Assembly: GCF_001182825.2 (NCBI RefSeq)
Contig: NZ_LFYO02000002.1
Coordinates: forward strand, 310,001-374,000
Reading direction: 5' to 3'
DNA length: 64,000 bases
Origin: Streptococcus sp. X13SY08
GTDB taxonomy: Bacteria; Bacillota; Bacilli; Lactobacillales; Streptococcaceae
Of the stretch, positions 34,613-46,910 are shown piece after piece (position 1 is the first letter of the stretch; every line of letters starts with the position of its first letter). The notes under the pieces were generated by a model that was not told where the DNA came from, did not search any database, and saw only the letters and a program-made list of their open reading frames with translations. The position numbers were made by a program, and so were the translations under genes.

Positions 34613-37600
34613 AACTGCTTGCCTAGGCGATACAGATATTGAAGAGAATTTGCCGGCACACCTAGCTGATTTAGCAGCTGAGTACGCCAAGCTTGGTCAC
34701 CGAGTTTTTTACATTGCTCCTAACTCCCTTTCTTTTGAAAAAGAGCGGAGCGTTTTAGAGCGTCTGGAAGGGCAGGCCTCGTTTGATGTGATGGTGACGC
34801 GTTTTGGTCAGCTGGCGCGCTATTTTATTCTCAATGAGCCATTGCAAATGCAAGCCATGGATGATAGGGGGATATCCATGCTCTTTTTCCGAGTCCTGTC
34901 ACAAATGGAGGATCAAGACTTACAAGTCTATGGCAAACTTAAGCAAGACATGAATTTCATCGAGCAACTCGTTGCCCTCTATAAAGAAATGCAAGTAGCG
35001 CGAATTAGTTTAGATGACTTAGATGCACTTCATTCAGAGGAAAAAGCTGCAGATTTACGATTGATATTTTCACAATTTGCCCAATTAATCCAGTTAGAAG
35101 GCTACAGTTCAGAAACTAAAATCGCTCAATTTACGCGGTTAATGGAAACAGGACAGCTCGATGCGGGGCTGAGTCAGGTTGTCGTTATTGTAGATGGTTA
35201 TACGCGATTTTCTGCGGAAGAAGAAGGTCTTCTTCAAGCGCTCAATGGTCGCGTATCAGATATTGTCATTGGAACCTATGCTAGCCGAAAAGCCTATGCA
35301 GCCAACTATATTGCTGGTAATCTCTATCAGGCTGGTGTCGAATTTTTACGCCATTTGGCGCAGCTATTTGCCACTAAACCTCTCTATATTGAGACTGAAG
35401 AAAAAGCTTTGGCATCAGGAAAAATGACCAAATGGTTGGAAAGTCATTATGATTTTTCAGAAGAAAAGACAGAGTTGACGCAAGAGGATTTGCAAACGAT
35501 TTCCATTTGGCAAGCGACCAATCAAAAAGAGGAAGTGGAAGCCCTAGCACGTGCTATTCGGCATGATTTGGCCAAAGGCAAACGTTATAAGGATATTTTG
35601 GTACTTTTAGGTGATGTAGAAGGCTATCAATTGCAGCTATCCAAGATATTTGATAAGTATGAGATTCCTTATTATTTGGGCAAGGCAGAAGCCATGAGTC
35701 ACCATCCTTTGGTACACTTTGTGGAGTCTTTGGAGCGACTCAAGCGCTATCATTTCAGAACTAAGGATATGCTCAATCTGCTCAAGTCTGGCCTTTTCAG
35801 ACATTTTTCACAGTTGCAACTGGATAAGTTTGAGCAGTATATCCTCTTTGCAGACATCAAAGGACAGGCTAAATTTGCCAAGGATTTTCAAGTCAATAGC
35901 AGAGCTAAGTATGACTTAGCGGCTCTAAACAGCATGCGTCACGACATAATGGAGCCTATCCAAGAGCTTTTTAAGGCGCAACCACAATCAGGTCGATCTT
36001 TGTTGCAAAAGCTTATGCGCTTTTTAGAAAAGATTGATTTGCCTAGAAATATGGCAGCCTTGTCTAGTGGCTACGGTCGGCTGGCGCTTGAAAAGGAAGA
36101 AGAGGTCTGGAAAGCCTTTTGGCACTTTTGCGATCAGGAATGCTAGCAAGTCAGTATCGTGTGGTTCCTGCTACGGTGGATGTGGTCAATGTGCGGTCCT
36201 ATGACTTGATTGAGCCTCATAGTAAGAAAATTGTTTATGCTATCGGAATGGGACAGTCGAATTTTCCAAAGCAAGCCAAAAATAATAGTCTCCTAACGGA
36301 AGAAGAGCGCCAGCAAATCAATGATGGCACCCCTAGTCAGGGACGATTTGACATTATTTCCCAAGAAAATACCAAGAAAAATAACTTTGTTTTCTTGTCT
36401 TTGGTTCACTCTGCCATGGAAAAACTAGTCTTATCTGCTCCGCAAATTTTCAAGGAAGCAGAAGATAGTTTGTCCCCTTATCTGAGGGTATTGATAGATA
36501 TGGGAGTAGAGGTCATTGAGAAAGGACGCAACTACAAGCTCTCTGCTGATGATATTGGTCATTACAAAGGACTTTTATCGCGTGTCATTGAGGCAAATCG
36601 CCAGCAAATTGATCAAAAGTGGCAGGAATGACTGTCTAAGGAAGAAGTTAGACAAAGAAGGCATCTCTATTCCTAGTATCTCAAGCGATTTGACGACCAA
36701 AAAATTAGAGCAAGAAACGCTGGATGTCCTTTACCCGCTGGACCAGCCCCTGCAATTATCTGCCTCCAGTCTGACCGATTTTTATCGCAATGAATATCTT
36801 TATTTTTTGCGCTATGTTTTACGTTTGGAAGAGCAGGAGAGTGTGCGACCAGATGCGCGTAGTCATGGGAATTTTCTGCATCGGATCTTTGAGCGAGTCA
36901 TGACGGATCAGGAGGGGGATTTTGACAGTAAACTCAGCCGTGCCATCATGGAAACGCGTAATGAAGAAGGATTTCAAGCTCTCTATACTAACGATGCGGA
37001 CTCTCAGTTTTCGGAAGATATGCTCCTAGACATTGCGCGTGCGACCGCCTTGGTTCTACGCTACGACAGTGTCATACGAGTCATCGAGGACGAAGCAGTT
37101 TTTGGTAAAGATAATGATAACCTTCTCATTTTGGAAAATGGCAGAGCTGTCAATATCAAAGGGAAAATTGACCGATTGGATACGATTCAGTCAGATGGCG
37201 CTCTTGGAGTTGTGGACTATAAATCTAGCAGTAAAACCTTCAAGCTGGACCAATTTTACAATGGTCTCAGCCCGCAGCTTTTGACCTACATTGCAGCTAT
37301 TAAGAATCATCCTGAGTACAGTCAGGCGGAAAAGGTTTTTGGTGCTATGTATCTCCATATGTTAGATCCGATTGTGAAATTAAAAGACACTAAAGGAGCG
37401 GATATGGCGTTGGCTGAAGCCTATAAATCCTTGGTCTACAAGGGATTATTCTTGGAAGAAGAAAGCAATCGCCTCAACCAACTTTACTATAAAACTAAGG
37501 CTAGTCTCTTTACAGAAGCAGAGCTTGCGGTCTTACTAGATTACAATCAACACCTATATGAGCAAGCGTCCAAGAAGATATTATCCGGTAGCTTTGCCAT

Positions 37601-37808
37601 TAATCCGTATACGGAGGATGGGAAATCCGTCGCTGGTCAGCAACTCAAGGCTATCACTGGATTTGAAGCTAATCTGCATATGGGGCAGGCGCGTCATCTT
37701 GTGAAAGGTGGTAAGAAGGAAGAATGGTTGGCGCGGATGAAAGACAAAGAAGTCAACCAAGAAAACCCAGAAAACTTTGATCAGAAAGGGGGCAAGTATG
37801 ACATTTGA
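34589..37808 (+). pseudogene. rexB: ATP-dependent nuclease subunit B (RexB/AddB), three breaks
   Basis: RexB with RexA forms the AddAB-type helicase-nuclease for double-strand break repair. Three defects. (1) Near 34604-34628 the expected RLLY-TDIEENLPAHLADLA is split by about 19 extra bases holding the palindrome GCCTAGGC. (2) At 36117-36119 the frame jumps from EVWKA to LALLRSGMLASQYR; streptococcal RexB has 22 residues between them and two bases remain, so 64 nt are missing. (3) At 36626-36633 it jumps from DQKWQE to CLRKKLDKEGISIP, either one inserted T or a loss of about 30 nt. The nuclease motif GVVDYKSSS is intact. Its end overlaps rexA by 11 bases. Confidence 0.82.
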
Positions 37809-40800
37809 AGCATTTTTAAATTCAGAAGCTATCAAACAATTGCAAGTACAAGAGGCAGCTTCCAGCAAAGCGCAAAAGCGTACTCCTGAGCAGATTGAAG
37901 CCATCTATACAAATGGAACCAATGTTCTCGTATCAGCCTCAGCTGGTTCGGGGAAGACCTTCGTTATGGTCGAGCGAATTCTGGATAAAATCTTGCGAGG
38001 TGTAGGCATTGACCAGCTTTTCATTTCGACCTTTACGGTCAAGGCGGCTGGCGAGCTCAAAGAGCGGATTGAGAAAAAATTAAGTGAGACCTTGTCCAAA
38101 ACGAATCATCCAGCCTTACGACAACATCTGTCTACTCAGCTTACGAATCTGGAAAATGCAGATATCGGGACCATGGATGCTTTTACGCAGAAATTAGTAA
38201 CGACCTATGGTTACACGATTGGTGTTGCGCCTAATTTTCGAATTTTGCAGGATAAAAATGAGCAAGACTTACTTAAGGATGAAGTTTTTACGGACTTATT
38301 TGCGGATTATCTGAAGAGAGCTGACCGAGATCTCTTTCTAGCTTTGGTCAAAAATTTTACAGGCAATGGCAAGGACAATCGTGCTTTTCGTAGTGTTGTC
38401 TACCAAGTTCACAGCTTTAGCCAATCCACAAGTAACCCCAAAGAATGGCTCAAAACAACACTTTTGAAAGGACATGAGAATTTTAGAAGTCTATCTGACA
38501 TACCAGACTCTATCATTGATGGGCTCCTCATCAGTGTTGAGCAGACAGCAGATGCTTTGGAAGATTTGACCTATCTACCAAATTATAAACGCAAAACCAA
38601 AACCGGCGCAGCAACAGCGACTTTTAAAAAGCATGAAGTCATTTTTATGGGCTTACGTGATCTACTTGCGACCTTTCCTGCGGACAATTTGTCAGAGAAC
38701 TTTCCAAGTCTCATTGCCCAGATTGTTGATTTGTTACCATCGGGGACAGATGTGACGGTAGCAGGAGTGAAATACCCCATTTTTAAGCAGCTACACAATC
38801 GTTTAGTGGATTTGCAGCATTTGGAAACGATTTTGACCTATCAGCCGCAGGCGTTGCCTATTTTGCGTCTCCTACAGGCTTTTGTTCTCGATTTTTCTGA
38901 CCAGTATTTGCAACGTAAAATGCAAGAAAATGCCTATGAATTTTCGGATATCAGTCATTTTGCAATTCAGATTTTAGAAGAAAATCCAGCTATTCGAGAC
39001 CATTTTTCAGCTAAGTATCATGAAGTCATGGTTGACGAGTATCAAGACAATAATCATAGCCAAGAGCGTATGTTAGACCTCTTGTCAAATGGCCACAATC
39101 GCTTTATGGTAGGTGACATTAAGCAGTCTATTTATCGTTTCCGTCAAGCTGATCCACAGATTTTCCAAGGAAAATTTGAGACTTATCAGATGCATCCTGA
39201 ACAGGGAAAACTAATTTTACTAAAAGAAAATTTCCGTAGTCAAAATGAAGTTTTGGATGCGACAAATGCTATCTTTACGCGTTTGATGGACCGTCAGGTT
39301 GGTCAAATTAAATATGACCAGACCCATACTTTGGTGGCAGGAAGCGATCGTCAGCGAATCGCCCAGCCACATCATGAAATGGAATATCTCATCTACAATA
39401 CCGATGTGACAAATGAAGAAGGAGATATAACCGCGGGTGAGGTTGAACTGGTTGCCAAGGGGATTATTCGCTTGGTCAATGAGGAGCAAGTCGCATTTTC
39501 TGATATCACCCTCCTTGTTCCGTCGCGGACGCGTAACCAAGACATTTTAGACTCTTTTGAAAAGCATGGGATTCCCCTAGTTTCCGATGGCGGTGAGGCC
39601 AATTACCTCAAGTCAGTAGAAGTTATGGTGATGCTGGATACCCTGCGCACCATCAATAACCCCCTCAACGATTATGCTCTGGTGGCTCTCCTCAAGTCAC
39701 CCATGTTTGCATTTGACGAAGACCAGCTGACTCGCATTTCTCTCCAGAGTGACCGTGCCAACCTCTATGAGAAAATTAAGCTTGTGCTGGGTCAAAAAGG
39801 TGTCCATCCACACTTGATTGGTCAGGAATTGCTCAAAAAGCTTGAGGCTTTCGACGCTAGGCTCAATAGCTGGCGCAGATACGCTAAAAACCATGCCATT
39901 CATGATTTAATCTGGAAAATTTTCAATGAAAAATTTTACTATGATTATGTCGGTGGTCTACCAAATGGTAGCAAACGTCAAGCTAATCTCTACGCTTTGG
40001 GAACGCGTGCCAATCAATTTGAAAAAACTGGATTTAAAGGCCTATCTCGTTTTATTTCCATGGTCGACAAGTTACTAGCCAGTGATAATGACTTGGCGGA
40101 TGTGGAAGTTGCTTTGCCACAAAATGCTGTCCAGCTCATGACGGTCCATAAAAGTAAAGGATTGGAATTTAAATACGTTTTCTTGCTCAATATGGACAAG
40201 AATTTCAATGCTATGGAAAGTAAAAGTCCCGTCATTCTCAGTCGAGAAAATGGAATCGGCATCCAATATGTGGCAGATTTCAAAGATCGTTTTGACACCC
40301 TGCTCCCGCATGTGCGTGTTGCCATGAATACTCTTCCTTACCAGCTCAACCAGCAGGAGCTCAAAATTGCTAATTTGTCGGAGCAAATGCGTCTTCTTTA
40401 TGTCGCGATGACACGGGCAGAACTCAAACTTTATCTAGTCGGCAAGGGAAGTCAGGAAAAATTAGCTGACAAGTATGATGGTAAACGGGATGCGGATGTT
40501 CTCCTCTCTAGTCGTCGAGAGTCCATGACCAATTTCCAAGATTGGATTTTGGCTATTGAAGAGGCATTTAAAGATGACAATCTTCATTTCAAGAAGACCT
40601 TTATCAACGATGAGGATTTGACACCTGAAAAAATTGGTGCCCTTAAGCTCAAGCCAGTTATCGATGCAGATAACCTCAAGGACAATCGTCAGTCGAAGGA
40701 TATTGTCCGTGCACTTGACCAATTGGAAACAGTTGAAAAGCTTAATCAGGAGTACCGCTCTGCCATTGAGCTGCCAAGCGTTCGAACCCCCAGCCAAATC

Positions 40801-41397
40801 AAGAAATTCTACGAATCCATTATGGAAGAAGACGGACTTGCCATTATGGAAAAACCAGCGCTAGCGCCTAGATTTGACCTGCCAGATTTTGGTAAAAACA
40901 TGAGCGTGACGGGAGCCCAAATCGGATCAGCCCTCCATGAATTGATGCAGCGTTTACCACTGGAACAAAAGATGACAAAAACACTCTTAGCAGCAACTCT
41001 TGCTCAAGTAGCAGCAGAAGATCTTGTTAAGGAAAATATTGATTTAGACAAAGTTTTAGCCTTCTTTGACACAGACTTGGGTCGAGAAATTTTACGAAAC
41101 TCTGACAAGGTTCGCCGCGAAGCAACCTTTGCAAGCTTGCAGGTGGATCCTGTCTCTAAAGAGCAATTCGTCCTCCGCGGAATCATTGATGGATTTATTC
41201 ACTATCCAGAAGAAAATCGCATGGTCCTTTTTGACTATAAAACGGATCGATACGACGATCCAGAGCAGTTGATTGCACGCTACATTGCACAGATGAATCT
41301 CTACGCAGCTGCCCTCCAGAAAGCCTATCAAGTAGATAAAATTGACAAATATCTTGTCCTCCTCGGCGGAGAGAGTATCAATGTTATCAGCATATAA
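37798..41397 (+). CDS. rexA: ATP-dependent helicase/nuclease subunit A (RexA/AddA)
   Basis: The 1199-residue helicase-nuclease subunit. Walker [10 protein letters not shown] at residues 46-54, [15 protein letters not shown] (motif Ia), [12 protein letters not shown] (motif II), [15 protein letters not shown] (motif III), [16 protein letters not shown] (motif V), and a C-terminal RecB-like nuclease with [13 protein letters not shown] and [15 protein letters not shown] 37798 follows AAAGGGGGC and overlaps the rexB stop, so the subunits are translationally coupled. Unlike rexB it is uninterrupted. Confidence 0.96.
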
Positions 41398-41401
41398 AAA
41401 G

Positions 41402-41434
41402 ACCTCCTGTTTGCTATAGACAGGAGGTTATTCT
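41402..41434 (+). terminator. rexA terminator
   Basis: ACCTCCTGT-TTGCTATAG-ACAGGAGGT followed by TTATTCTT, five bases after the rexA stop. Confidence 0.8.
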
Positions 41435-41483: not shown

Positions 41484-41599
41484 TAAAAAAATACACTCGA
41501 ATCGGGTGCCACTTTTTCAAGTTGATTACGGACTGAGCTAAAAACTACTGCCTTATTTTAACTTGCTGTGTTGTTTCGAATGGTTCCAAGCTGTAATAG
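41484..41599 (-). ncRNA. Type II-A CRISPR tracrRNA, orphan (no cas genes in the window)
   Basis: Read on the minus strand, 41589 downwards gives GGAACCATTCGAAACAACAC, AGCAAGTTAAAATAAGGC, AGTCCGTAATCAACTTGAAA, AAGTGGCACC, then a hairpin and TTTTTTT at 41485-41491. This is the order of streptococcal tracrRNAs: anti-repeat, nexus (AAGGC...AGTCCGT), stem AACTTG-AAAA-AGTG, terminator. The anti-repeat complements the widespread type II-A repeat over about 25 bases. The nexus has the extra AGTT-TTT-AGCT hairpin seen in the Streptococcus mutans form, not the short Streptococcus pyogenes form. The terminator stem CACCCG/CGAGTG has one mismatch. A minus-strand promoter, TATAGT at 41606-41611 with TTTGTA at 41628-41633, lies upstream. 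No cas9, cas1, cas2, csn2 or repeat array is present between rexA and the LCP gene. Confidence 0.88.
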
Positions 41600-41648
41600 A
41601 AAAATACTATATCCAGCTCTGCTATTTTACAAATAAATAAAAAATAGG

Positions 41649-41678
41649 AAACCAAGGTGTGGGAATCTTGGTTTTCTT
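41649..41678 (+). terminator. Terminator-like hairpin with no gene before it
   Basis: AAACCAAG-GTGTGGGAAT-CTTGGTTTT then C, plus strand. The only upstream plus-strand gene, rexA, already has its own terminator 220 bases earlier. It may be a relic of a gene or operon lost from this gap. Confidence 0.6.
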
Positions 41679-41761
41679 ATGTTATGAATTGACAAGTTTA
41701 GTGATTTCCTATAAACTTTTAAGGTACCGTTTGTTTGATGGCACGCGGGAAAGGAATTGAC

Positions 41762-43153
41762 ATGAAGAGAAACGACAGTCACCTCAGTCATCATGAGGAA
41801 CTACGATTAGATTATTTACAAAAAAATATTTATTATTTGAATGATAAGGAAAAGCGGGAGCTGGCTTTTTTGAAATACAAGGCTCAGGGCTATGCGACGA
41901 ATGTTGCTTATCCACATCCAAATAAGATTCGTCAACCTAAGGTGAAGGCTATTCCACAAGAAGAACCTGCGTGGGTGGATGATGTGCCCTACTATGGCGA
42001 AGAAGAGGATGATTTATTTGGTGTTCCTGATTATCCAACTCAGACGCGAACAAGAAGCCGTAAATCAGCTAAAAAGCCCCGCAGACCAAAAGTAGCCACT
42101 CAACCAATCATGGTGGAGGAAAATCTAGTTTCCTCCTATAAAAAGCAGGACAATCGACCAAAGAAACCAAGAAAAAAAGGTGGATTCAAGCGTTTTATAA
42201 GAATACTTGGGCTCTTGTTAGTGGCAGTACTAGCCGGTATGATTTTTATGTTTGTTAAGGGCTTTACGGGTGGTGCTGAGGGCAATAGCAAAGCTGCCGA
42301 GGCAGAAGTTTTCCATGGTGAGAATACCCGCGATGGCGTTAATATTCTGGTCTTGGGAACAGATGGTCGTATTGGAGATTCATCCGACATGACACGGACG
42401 GATTCTATCATGGTGATCAATATCAACAACACTGATAAAAAAGTGAAGATGGTCAGCTTTATGCGTGATACACTCATCAATATTGAAGGTAATGACTATA
42501 AACTCAATGTGGCCTATACTTTTGGAGAACAAAATAATCACCAAGGTGCAGAAAATGTTCGACAAGTATTAAAAGAAAATTTTGACTTAGATATTAAACA
42601 TTATGCCTTAGTTGATTTCTCAACATTTGCGACAGCGATCGATACACTCTTCCCAGAAGGTGTGACCATGAATGCTCAGTTTTCAACCATTGGTGGCCAA
42701 GATGTGTCGGAAGTGGATGTGCCAGACGATCTCAATATGAAAGACGGCATTGTGCCCAACCAGACCATCGAAGAAGGCATTCAGCAAATGGACGGCCGGA
42801 CTCTTCTTAACTATGCACGTTTCCGTAAGGACGACGAGGGAGACTATGGTCGGACTCGTCGCCAGCAAGAAGTGATGGCAGCGGTTCTTAGCCAAATCAA
42901 GGACCCAACCAAACTCTTTACAGGGTCAGAAGCTCTAGGAAAAGTCTTCTCCTTGACATCCACTAGTGTACCCTATAGTTTCTTACTGACGAATGGGATC
43001 ACAGCAGCACTTGATGGGACCAGTGGTATCGAGACGACTACCATTCCAGAAAATAATGACTGGGCTGAGGAATACGATGTTTATGGTGGTTCAGGAATCA
43101 AGATTGATTTTGAAAAGTACAAAGCGAAACTTTCTGATATGGGATTCCGCTAA
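41762..43153 (+). CDS. LytR-CpsA-Psr (LCP) family protein
   Basis: LCP proteins attach teichoic acids or capsule polymers to peptidoglycan outside the cell. The 463-residue protein has a long charged cytoplasmic N-terminus (about 1-150, rich in Lys/Arg), one membrane helix (FIRILGLLLVAVLAGMIFMFV), then the LCP domain: GVNILVLGTDGR, SDMTRTDSIMVININ with the conserved Arg and Asp, VSFMRDTLINI, GRTLLNYARFRKDDEGDYGRTRRQQEV. ATG 41762 has AAAGGAA upstream. A TTGACA at 41689 and TATAAA at 41710 (15-base spacing) are a possible promoter. Confidence 0.93.
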   Translation: MKRNDSHLSHHEELRLDYLQKNIYYLNDKEKRELAFLKYKAQGYATNVAYPHPNKIRQPKVKAIPQEEPAWVDDVPYYGEEEDDLFGVPDYPTQTRTRSRKSAKKPRRPKVATQPIMVEENLVSSYKKQDNRPKKPRKKGGFKRFIRILGLLLVAVLAGMIFMFVKGFTGGAEGNSKAAEAEVFHGENTRDGVNILVLGTDGRIGDSSDMTRTDSIMVININNTDKKVKMVSFMRDTLINIEGNDYKLNVAYTFGEQNNHQGAENVRQVLKENFDLDIKHYALVDFSTFATAIDTLFPEGVTMNAQFSTIGGQDVSEVDVPDDLNMKDGIVPNQTIEEGIQQMDGRTLLNYARFRKDDEGDYGRTRRQQEVMAAVLSQIKDPTKLFTGSEALGKVFSLTSTSVPYSFLLTNGITAALDGTSGIETTTIPENNDWAEEYDVYGGSGIKIDFEKYKAKLSDMGFR

Positions 43154-43219: not shown

Positions 43220-44587
<1,368 letters not shown>

Positions 44588-44784: not shown

Positions 44785-45350
44785 TTATTTTGCTACGACA
44801 TCGTTTAAAAATTCTTCAGTTGTCATAGTTTGTCCCATGATTGGGAAGAGATGTTCGATAGGGAATTGATGCAATTCTTCTGTTTGAGCAGCCATCATGT
44901 CCGTAATAAAGTATTGATCATAGCCAAGTTGATAAGCATCTCTAGCGGTTGAATCGACACCAGCGTGGGTAGAAATTCCTCCTAAAATGATGGTATCAAT
45001 ACCTCGGCGACGCAATTGGAGATCCAAATCCGTTCCAAAAAAGGCACTAAATCCTCGTTTGTTGACAATGAAATCTTGAGGAGAAACGTTCAGCTCGTCT
45101 GCAAGATCAGCAAATTCTGGTGACATTTTTTTGCAGGGAGTTGCTTCATAGCATTTGGAGCCAATTTATCTTTTCCATCATGGAATTTAACGCGCACAAA
45201 AGTAATAAATCCGTTTTCTTTACGAAAGAGTTCAACTAGTTCCTTAGCATTTGAGACGACAGTCTCAGTAGTATGAGGGGCAGTTGGCATTTCTAAGATA
45301 CCTTTTTGCAAATCAATTAAGACAGGTGCTGTCTTATTAAAATCCAACAT
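44785..45350 (-). pseudogene. Isochorismatase-family cysteine hydrolase, one-base slip in a homopolymer
   Basis: MLDFNKTAPVLIDLQKGILEM (catalytic Asp region) starts at 45350 after AAAGGAGAATCTC. The frame runs to QLPAKK and then slips at an A7 run (T at 45126-45132 on the plus strand); one more A restores KKMSPEFADLADELNV, RGFSAFFGTDLDLQLRRRG and GGISTHAGVDSTARDAY to the end. The usual catalytic Cys position in the G-x-S-T-H-x-x-V block reads Gly, seen in some non-hydrolase members. It diverges from the MFS gene and may have been functionally tied to it. Confidence 0.75.
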
Positions 45351-45535
45351 GAGATTCTCCTTTAATATGGTATGGTATTTTATAGCCATTTCGGTATTAG
45401 GCTAGGTAAACAGAAACATTCAGCTCAAATTTTAAAAGCTAAATGACTTGATATATCACTATGTAGTGCCTTCCCGTAATAGTATTGTAATTGAAAAATA
45501 GATTATTTGCAAGAAAAAGAATTGGAGATTACGCT

Positions 45536-46910
45536 ATGTCATCAGATTTATCCATCAGTAAATTTCAGAGAAACATGACAGTGCTAACCATGATGCTGGG
45601 TGCTTTCATCGTCTTGTTGAATCAAACTTTATTAACGACAGCACTTCCAGACATTATGAAAACCTTCGAATTGTCTTTGGATAATGTTCAATGGTTGACA
45701 ACCATTTTTATGTTGGTTAATGGGATTATGATTCCTATATCCGCTTATTATACAGTTCGTTTTTCAAGTAAAAGTTTGTATCTCACCGCCGTTACTCTTT
45801 TTATTATAGGGACCATATTGTATCTTGTAGCTCCTTATTATTGGATGATACTGATTGGTAGAGTTGTTCAAGCAATCGGAGCGTGAATCATGATTCCTTT
45901 GATGCAAGTTGTCTTATTGGTGGCTTTTCCCGTAGAAGAAAGAGGAACAGCCATGGGGATATTTGGATTAGTAACTGGTTTTTCTCCAGCTATTGGTCCA
46001 ACGCTATCGGGATGGGTACTTAGTCATTATCAATGGCCAGCTATCTTTTTGTTTGTACTGATCGCTATGGTCATCAATCTACTAACAAGTATCAAAGGAG
46101 TAAAAAATTTAACAATAACTGAATCAGCTCAATTAGATATACCGTCTGTCTTACTATCAACCTATGCTTTTGGTGGTTTATTGTATGGTTTTAGTAGAGC
46201 GAGTCGTCTCGGATTTAGTAATGTTTTCATTTGGCTCATTCTGCTTACATCATTTTTTTGCACTTTTTGTCTATATCAAAAGACAAAATCATCTAGCTAC
46301 CCCTATGCTTGATATGAGCGTCTTGCGTGTCAAACGGTTTGTACATGCTTGTGTCATCATCATGGTCATGTTTATGATTTTTAATGCCCCTATGACTTTG
46401 ATGCCAATCTATATTCAAAATGTCAGAGGTTTGACTGCATTCCAAAGTGGATTGATCTTATTGCCGGGTGGTTTTCTAATGGGCTTATTAGCTCCGATTA
46501 CAGGACGTTTATTTGATAGATTTGGCGGAAAAATATTTGCTGTATCAGGTATGCTACTGATTGTTTTAAGCAGTTGGTTAATTGCTGGACTGACTTCTCG
46601 CTCTAGTGTGATTGAAATTACTGTATTATTTATGCTCTTGATGACTGGGAATGCTTTTATTTTAACACCTTTGACGACAAGTGCTATGAATGCCTTACCT
46701 ACGGAGCTTATACCTCATGGAAGTGCTATGAATAGCACGACTCGTCAATTGTTTGCTGCGATTGGGGCAGCCCTATTCGTTAGCTTAATGGGAGCAAATA
46801 CAAATTTAGGAGACGGATTTCAACTGACCTATCAAGCTATCACAGGACTTTCCATTTTAGGTCTTGTTCTAGCAACACTTTTACCAAAAGAGTTAAAGAA
46901 AGAAGTTTAA
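45536..46910 (+). pseudogene. MFS drug efflux transporter (DHA2/EmrB type), nonsense plus frameshift
   Basis: A 14-helix-type MFS exporter: FIVLLNQTLLTTALPDIM and NVQWLTTIFMLVNGIMIPISAY are the DHA2 signatures of helices 1-2. Two lesions: TGA at 45884-45886, where QAIGA-x-IMIPLMQ expects Gly (GGA to TGA), and a T7 run at 46253-46259 where T6 would keep SFFALFVYIKRQNHLATPMLDMS in frame. ATG 45536 follows TTGGAGAT. The remainder to the end is normal. A true pseudogene is likely. Confidence 0.8.

Follow-up and report, generated by a model that had tools for sequence, protein, structure and literature searches.

How did a tracrRNA of the Cas9 type come to lie between rexA and a gene of the LytR-CpsA-Psr (LCP) family, with no CRISPR-Cas locus around it, and does it still yield an RNA? 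The question is raised by the window, the 64,000-nucleotide stretch of Streptococcus sp. X13SY08 analyzed here. The first-pass annotation had read a full type II-A tracrRNA on its minus strand, and had offered three accounts of it: a transcribed relic of a lost system, a partner of a Cas9 encoded elsewhere, or an RNA reused on its own.

A tracrRNA without a CRISPR-Cas partner

The element is a tracrRNA. A cmscan of the window returned a single tracrRNA, a match on the minus strand to the full length of the model RF02348 at 41591-41487 (73.6 bits against a gathering threshold of 70, E 6.9e-10), and all of the parts that had been described by eye were present. These included the anti-repeat, the AAGGC...CAGTCCGT nexus with a small hairpin inserted, the AACTTGAAAAAGTG stem-loop at 41510-41523 (located by sequence and aligned to the RF02348 family), and a terminator hairpin at 41494-41508 followed by a T-run. 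The single mismatch reported in the terminator stem was also found, as a C-A pair at 41505/41497. The anti-repeat block (41566-41589) is complementary to a II-A repeat: read on the plus strand, 24 of its 24 nucleotides are the same as the repeat of the intact array in the genome G013. Homology with other tracrRNAs starts at 41589, and the closest DNA match was the tracrRNA of G043, a genome with a long Cas9 (91% over 110 nt). Folding of the RNA alone gave a z of 0.41. The tracrRNA stretch is single-copy in its own genome. It had no match in the phage and plasmid collections searched, for which reason a phage or plasmid origin was dropped.

The genome that contains the window, G000, comprises 1.545 Mb in five contigs, with a completeness of 94.2% and a contamination of 1.5%. 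The first-pass annotation had noted that no cas genes or array are nearby, and neither was found in the window or in the genome. The Cas9 model TIGR01865 was searched against 284 genomes of the genus, G000 among them, and was over cut-off in 111; the 94%-complete G000 gave no match. Searches that located Cas1, Cas2, and Csn2 in all four controls (G131, G132, G133, and G139) likewise found none of the three in G000. The genome was also searched for the II-A repeat, using a 31-nt pattern with up to three mismatches, and none was found; next to the anti-repeat of the window, a leftover spacer or degenerate repeat was sought and none was seen.

Orphan tracrRNAs and the probable excision of cas operons across the genus

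In a sample of one genome per species, RF02348 was over cut-off in 93 of the 284 Streptococcus genomes. A long Cas9, assigned by hand and counting broken long-type copies, was found in 65 of these and in none of the other 28, hence a match to RF02348 does not show that a Cas9 system is at work. Four of the 28 orphans encode a short-type Cas9 (G017, G164, G244, and G265), and 24 have no Cas9 over cut-off. The tracrRNA and the Cas9 are on separate contigs in G018, G116, G133, and G167. All statistics concern matches at or above the Rfam cut-off and exclude 25 genomes whose matches were weaker (E up to 0.001); 13 of these were inspected, and with all 25 included the total is 118 genomes. Related orphans, such as G032/G049/G160/G202, G243/G244, and G033/G051, are not independent. 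Outside the genus, G078 was found to have a tracrRNA above cut-off with a TTTTGG edge and no Cas9 match.

The terminator mismatch had been taken as a sign of relaxed selection. It fits such a reading, but the orphans as a group were not significantly weaker matches (median 90.45 bits among the 28, against 94.6 bits among the 65 long-Cas9 genomes, p 0.06), and relaxed selection was set aside as a general mark of orphans.

Read on the plus strand, the anti-repeat forms direct repeats with the repeats of the array. Because they are co-oriented, their recombination would excise the whole interval from the tracrRNA promoter through the array. A CRISPR repeat was found 60 nt from the tracrRNA core, the distance of one repeat-spacer unit, in six of the 28 orphans (G225, G229, G125, G046, G319, and G140). 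This repeat is degenerate in several of the six; terminal CRISPR repeats tend to be degenerate. Any repeat within 600 nt was present in 12 of the 28 orphans and in none of the 65 long-Cas9 genomes, with the search in G116 covering 116 nt only. The outer edge of the anti-repeat also differed by group: the repeat form TTTTGG occurred in 15 orphans against 0 long-Cas9 genomes, and the native form GTTGG in two against 55 (Fisher p 5e-10 and 9e-13, respectively, relatedness being ignored), while other forms accounted for 11 and 10. A TTTTGG edge was also seen in G164 (L205), where a tracrRNA of the RF02348 type lies beside ndk and the interval from ndk to lepA contains a short-Cas9 system; a second system appears to have settled beside the scar left by an earlier one.

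Synteny with intact relatives on both sides was observed in eight genomes (G046, G319, G258, G034, G049, G202, G032, and G160). For example, about 10.3 kb present in G252, or 9.9 kb by comparison with G248, is missing from G046, whose flanks are 92-95% identical and share an overlap of about 24 nt where they join. Inside, this joint has the native sequence (GAATAGTTCC) and outside that of the repeat (CCAAAAC), which makes it a hybrid. Both sides of G319 are collinear with G113. In the comparisons of G258 with G195 and of G034 with G193, the right block runs from the anti-repeat and matches the intact terminal repeat and trailer, and the left blocks end 207 nt and 1041 nt before the joint, respectively. 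G049, G202, G032, and G160 showed the same loss relative to G195, with about 400 nt extra between the hybrid and the next repeat. The extra sequence in these four (L132, L135, L129, and L127, respectively) includes what resembles the start of a small gene and is not in the intact G195. G039 was two-sided with 1.4 kb extra and was left out of the count. One-sided matches only were obtained for G125, for G159, and for G319 against G252, and the comparisons of G154, G030, G140, and G010 with relatives gave no two-sided result and no block over 200 nt.

Spacing or synteny thus indicates excision in 12 of the 28 orphans, namely the six with a fused repeat together with G258, G034, G049, G202, G032, and G160. 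As read from these genome sequences, the pattern suggests that II-A loci often delete themselves through recombination between the tracrRNA gene and a repeat, leaving a silent scar. Taken jointly, it is likely that II-A loci come with a built-in excision site, in which direct repeats of about 24 nt flank the cas operon, and that it has been used repeatedly; the window locus would be an old and further eroded case. A single step would then remove Cas9, Cas1, Cas2, Csn2, the leader, and the tracrRNA promoter, and the 28 of 93 species without a long Cas9, many with only promoterless scars, would form a record of lost immunity. In the open-access literature, searched by titles and the beginnings of abstracts and with most subscription journals lying outside it, no description of orphan tracrRNAs as excision scars was found, and no paper used the phrase "orphan tracrRNA".

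Flanking genes and the origin of the scar

The window has the order rexA (+), tracrRNA (-), a 3' fragment of pheA, the LCP gene (+), and a RumA-like gene (+). The rexA gene (37777-41397) encodes an AddA-type helicase-nuclease with UvrD helicase and PDDEXK_1 domains, and is followed by a terminator-like hairpin at 41401-41429 on the plus strand. To the right of the tracrRNA, the site expected for its native promoter is occupied by 94 nt (41592-41685), which include a TATAGT hexamer (41611-41606) and a hairpin (41646-41677) and which gave only blastn-short matches of 14-22 nt. The pheA fragment (41686-41760, plus strand) is open to the stop codon. It is followed by the LCP gene (41735-43153; PF03816), for which the ATG at 41762 is a more likely start than the listed TTG at 41735, and by the RumA-like RNA uracil methyltransferase gene (43232-44587; PF05958 and TRAM). 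A putative promoter within the pheA fragment, TTGACA-17-TAAACT at 41689-41717, likely serves the LCP gene. Elsewhere in the window, three regions each consist of overlapping ORFs in different frames, at 34650-37808 (+), which we take to be rexB-like, at 44785-45389 (-), isochorismatase-like, and at 45491-46910 (+), MFS-like; these split ORFs reflect either gene decay or assembly indels.

The pheA fragment was identified by alignment to the pheA ends of relatives. Within 41676-41733, the alignments beat the best of 200 shuffles, which preserved base composition alone, for nine of 11 relatives (the exceptions being G132 and G133), and the translation ELTSLVISYKLLRYRLF of the fragment matches ELTSLGISYKILGYYLV; of the fragment itself, 41686-41733 is aligned. 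By eye, the sequence upstream of 29 LCP loci in other genomes resembles the 3' end of pheA. Gene calls in G139 and G131 confirmed a pheA gene before LCP; so did tblastn in G058, G131, G132, G133, G139, G164, and G265, which in all seven also showed aroK and aroA ahead of pheA. In G000, no AroK or PheA was found and AroA gave only a 26% match, MurA-like in our reading; all three were present in the four controls. Ndk was not found in G000 either, but since it is also missing from two of the four controls (G131 and G132), its absence says little. The lepA gene, whose place in G132 and G133 is between the array and aroA, is retained in G000 among other neighbors, 83 kb away.

Complete II-A systems in the same orientation adjoin each of these two flanks in other genomes. 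On the rexA side, G013 has the order rexA, tracrRNA, cas9, cas1, cas2, csn2, a HicB-like gene, array, ndk, and lepA. On the LCP side, intact II-A loci lie upstream of lepA-aroA-aroK-pheA-LCP in G132 and G133 (the tracrRNA of G133 being on another contig than its II-A locus) and upstream of aroA-aroK-pheA-LCP in G058. The window locus therefore reads as a deletion scar. The first-pass annotation had proposed looking for an intact CRISPR locus in the rexA-LCP gap of related strains, and such loci were seen beside each flank in separate genomes: the order rexA-CRISPR-pheA-LCP was in no genome examined, and LCP was near rexA in 0 of 29 other rexA loci within the 1.5 kb or so fetched beyond rexA. 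Because that order is absent, and because the nearest relatives by RexA (G139 and G131, 74-75%) have their CRISPR loci at other sites, the ancestral order is one that we infer.

Two further features of these loci were observed. Three II-A loci (L112 9223-9609, L203 7841-8224, and L206 6552-6923) have a HicB-like antitoxin in the interval from csn2 to the array, on the basis of PF15919 in G013 and of tblastn relatives in G132 and G133. Additionally, a short-type Cas9 gene begins about 120 bp after rexA in G208 (G208:C21:28230-31523), so the site downstream of rexA has been used by two kinds of Cas9 locus.

The window element is very likely a silent relic of a lost II-A locus. An ancestral II-A locus would have lain between rexA and the aro-pheA-LCP cluster. 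A deletion running from the outer border of the anti-repeat to a point close to the 3' end of pheA, which was perhaps reached in a second step, would have taken cas9, cas1, cas2, and csn2 together with the array, the promoter of the tracrRNA, and the neighboring aro genes. The recurrent route in the genus would be recombination between the anti-repeat and an array repeat, excising the cas operon in one step; in the window, such an excision would later have been eroded and extended by further deletion into pheA. Counting against a relic, the body of the tracrRNA is well preserved, and significant decay is not a general feature of the orphans.

The manner of the first step is less clear. As expected of a recombination scar, the break is at the outer edge of the anti-repeat and the native promoter is lost. 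The edge reads GCTTGG, neither the repeat nor the native form, no repeat lies within 600 nt, and the 5' edge stops at TTGG, which both forms share. The junction is too decayed to prove the recombination route, and there is about an even chance that the first step of the window was recombination between anti-repeat and repeat. A conventional deletion or rearrangement, whether illegitimate or driven by an IS, with its end at the anti-repeat edge by chance is a possible if somewhat doubtful alternative: the edge is diagnostic of neither form, the right end is within pheA and not at a repeat, and the retention of lepA elsewhere points to further rearrangement, but the break falls at the very TTGG that is used in other orphans. 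With lepA kept 83 kb away, more than one rearrangement is needed, which weakened the candidate of a single deletion from the anti-repeat to pheA.

Loss of the native promoter, and known systems

In long-Cas9 genomes, the sequence upstream of the tracrRNA typically comprises CTTG..., a TATAAT-like box, and then TTGG, with about 7 nt between box and TTGG in the Cas9-bearing G249. The promoter-like TATAGT that the first-pass annotation had considered to be in place does exist, but 16 nt separate its end from TTGG, and the scan passed no sigma-70-like site on the minus strand. By eye, it is contained in an imperfect inverted repeat (41591-41616, minus strand; AGCTG.ATATAG ... CTAT.ACAGCT). On a position matrix built from the tracrRNA upstreams of long-Cas9 genomes and tested leave-one-out, these genomes scored 8.0 to 32.1 in 65 of 65 cases and the window scored -1.6. 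A native promoter at the window tracrRNA was dropped on these two results. The 28 orphans scored -21.4 to 10.8, with 23 at 4.2 or less, and shuffled orphan upstreams had a mean of -8.6, a 95th percentile of 1.4, and a maximum of 9.2. The five higher orphans (G049 7.6, G154 9.4, G160 10.1, G032 10.2, and G030 10.8) have a common AT-rich flank, and four of them outscored the weakest Cas9-bearing genome.

With no recognizable promoter and no partner protein, the element is most likely silent, and we infer that no RNA is made from it. The idea of a transcribed relic thus holds in one half: synteny, the pheA fragment, and the failure to find cas genes in the genome speak for a lost system, but the element has lost its native promoter and the search revealed no substitute. 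Reuse as an independent regulatory RNA, transcribed from a newly acquired promoter, might draw on the TATAGT box and the well-kept body; it is improbable, as the minus strand has no promoter that passes the scan, the upstream sequence differs from group to group among Cas9-free genomes, and there is no sister genome that shows it conserved. Similarly improbable is service to a Cas9 encoded in an unassembled part of the genome, on a plasmid, or in another strain. The nearly intact body, the 24-nt match to the common II-A repeat, and a completeness of 94% leave some room for it, but G000 yielded no Cas9, Cas1, Cas2, Csn2, or repeat and the native promoter is gone, and a Cas9 acting in trans was accordingly dropped. 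An assembly artefact joining rexA and LCP contigs is very improbable, for although there is a single assembly and several nearby genes look frameshifted, the joint lies within a 975-kb contig and a misjoin would not leave a decayed pheA end.

A silent relic of this kind bears on how loss of CRISPR immunity is recognized, which is usually inferred from absence alone. A tracrRNA scar shows that a locus existed, where it was, and in favorable cases the crossover itself; if the excision reading is true, past losses of immunity can be read from orphan tracrRNAs. The question of rate also becomes testable, namely whether the anti-repeat sets the frequency of II-A self-deletion. For annotators, a tracrRNA match even above the Rfam cut-off does not imply a working Cas9.

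The element shares its anti-repeat, nexus, stem-loop, and terminator with the streptococcal II-A tracrRNAs of RF02348, and differs from them in having no recognizable native promoter, no Cas9, and no array and in the one mismatch of its terminator stem. The long tracrRNA of S. pyogenes, which acts as a natural single guide, is likewise a tracrRNA body with extra 5' sequence, but in the window the genome has no Cas9 that could be found and the upstream sequence is not native. Among loci with missing components, the CRISPR2 locus of Enterococcus faecalis is described, in the excerpted text of its source, as an orphan array with degenerate terminal repeats (PMC5491264). As in the window, one component has been kept after, or without, the cas genes; unlike CRISPR2, the window keeps the tracrRNA and its array is gone. 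Similarly, the second CRISPR locus of Spiroplasma syrphidicola EA1 is an array with a predicted tracrRNA and no cas genes, for which the source, as excerpted, gives no mechanism (PMC6882279). The window differs from this locus in having no array, and it is the array-fused orphans G046, G319, and G225 that the EA1 tracrRNA without cas genes resembles.
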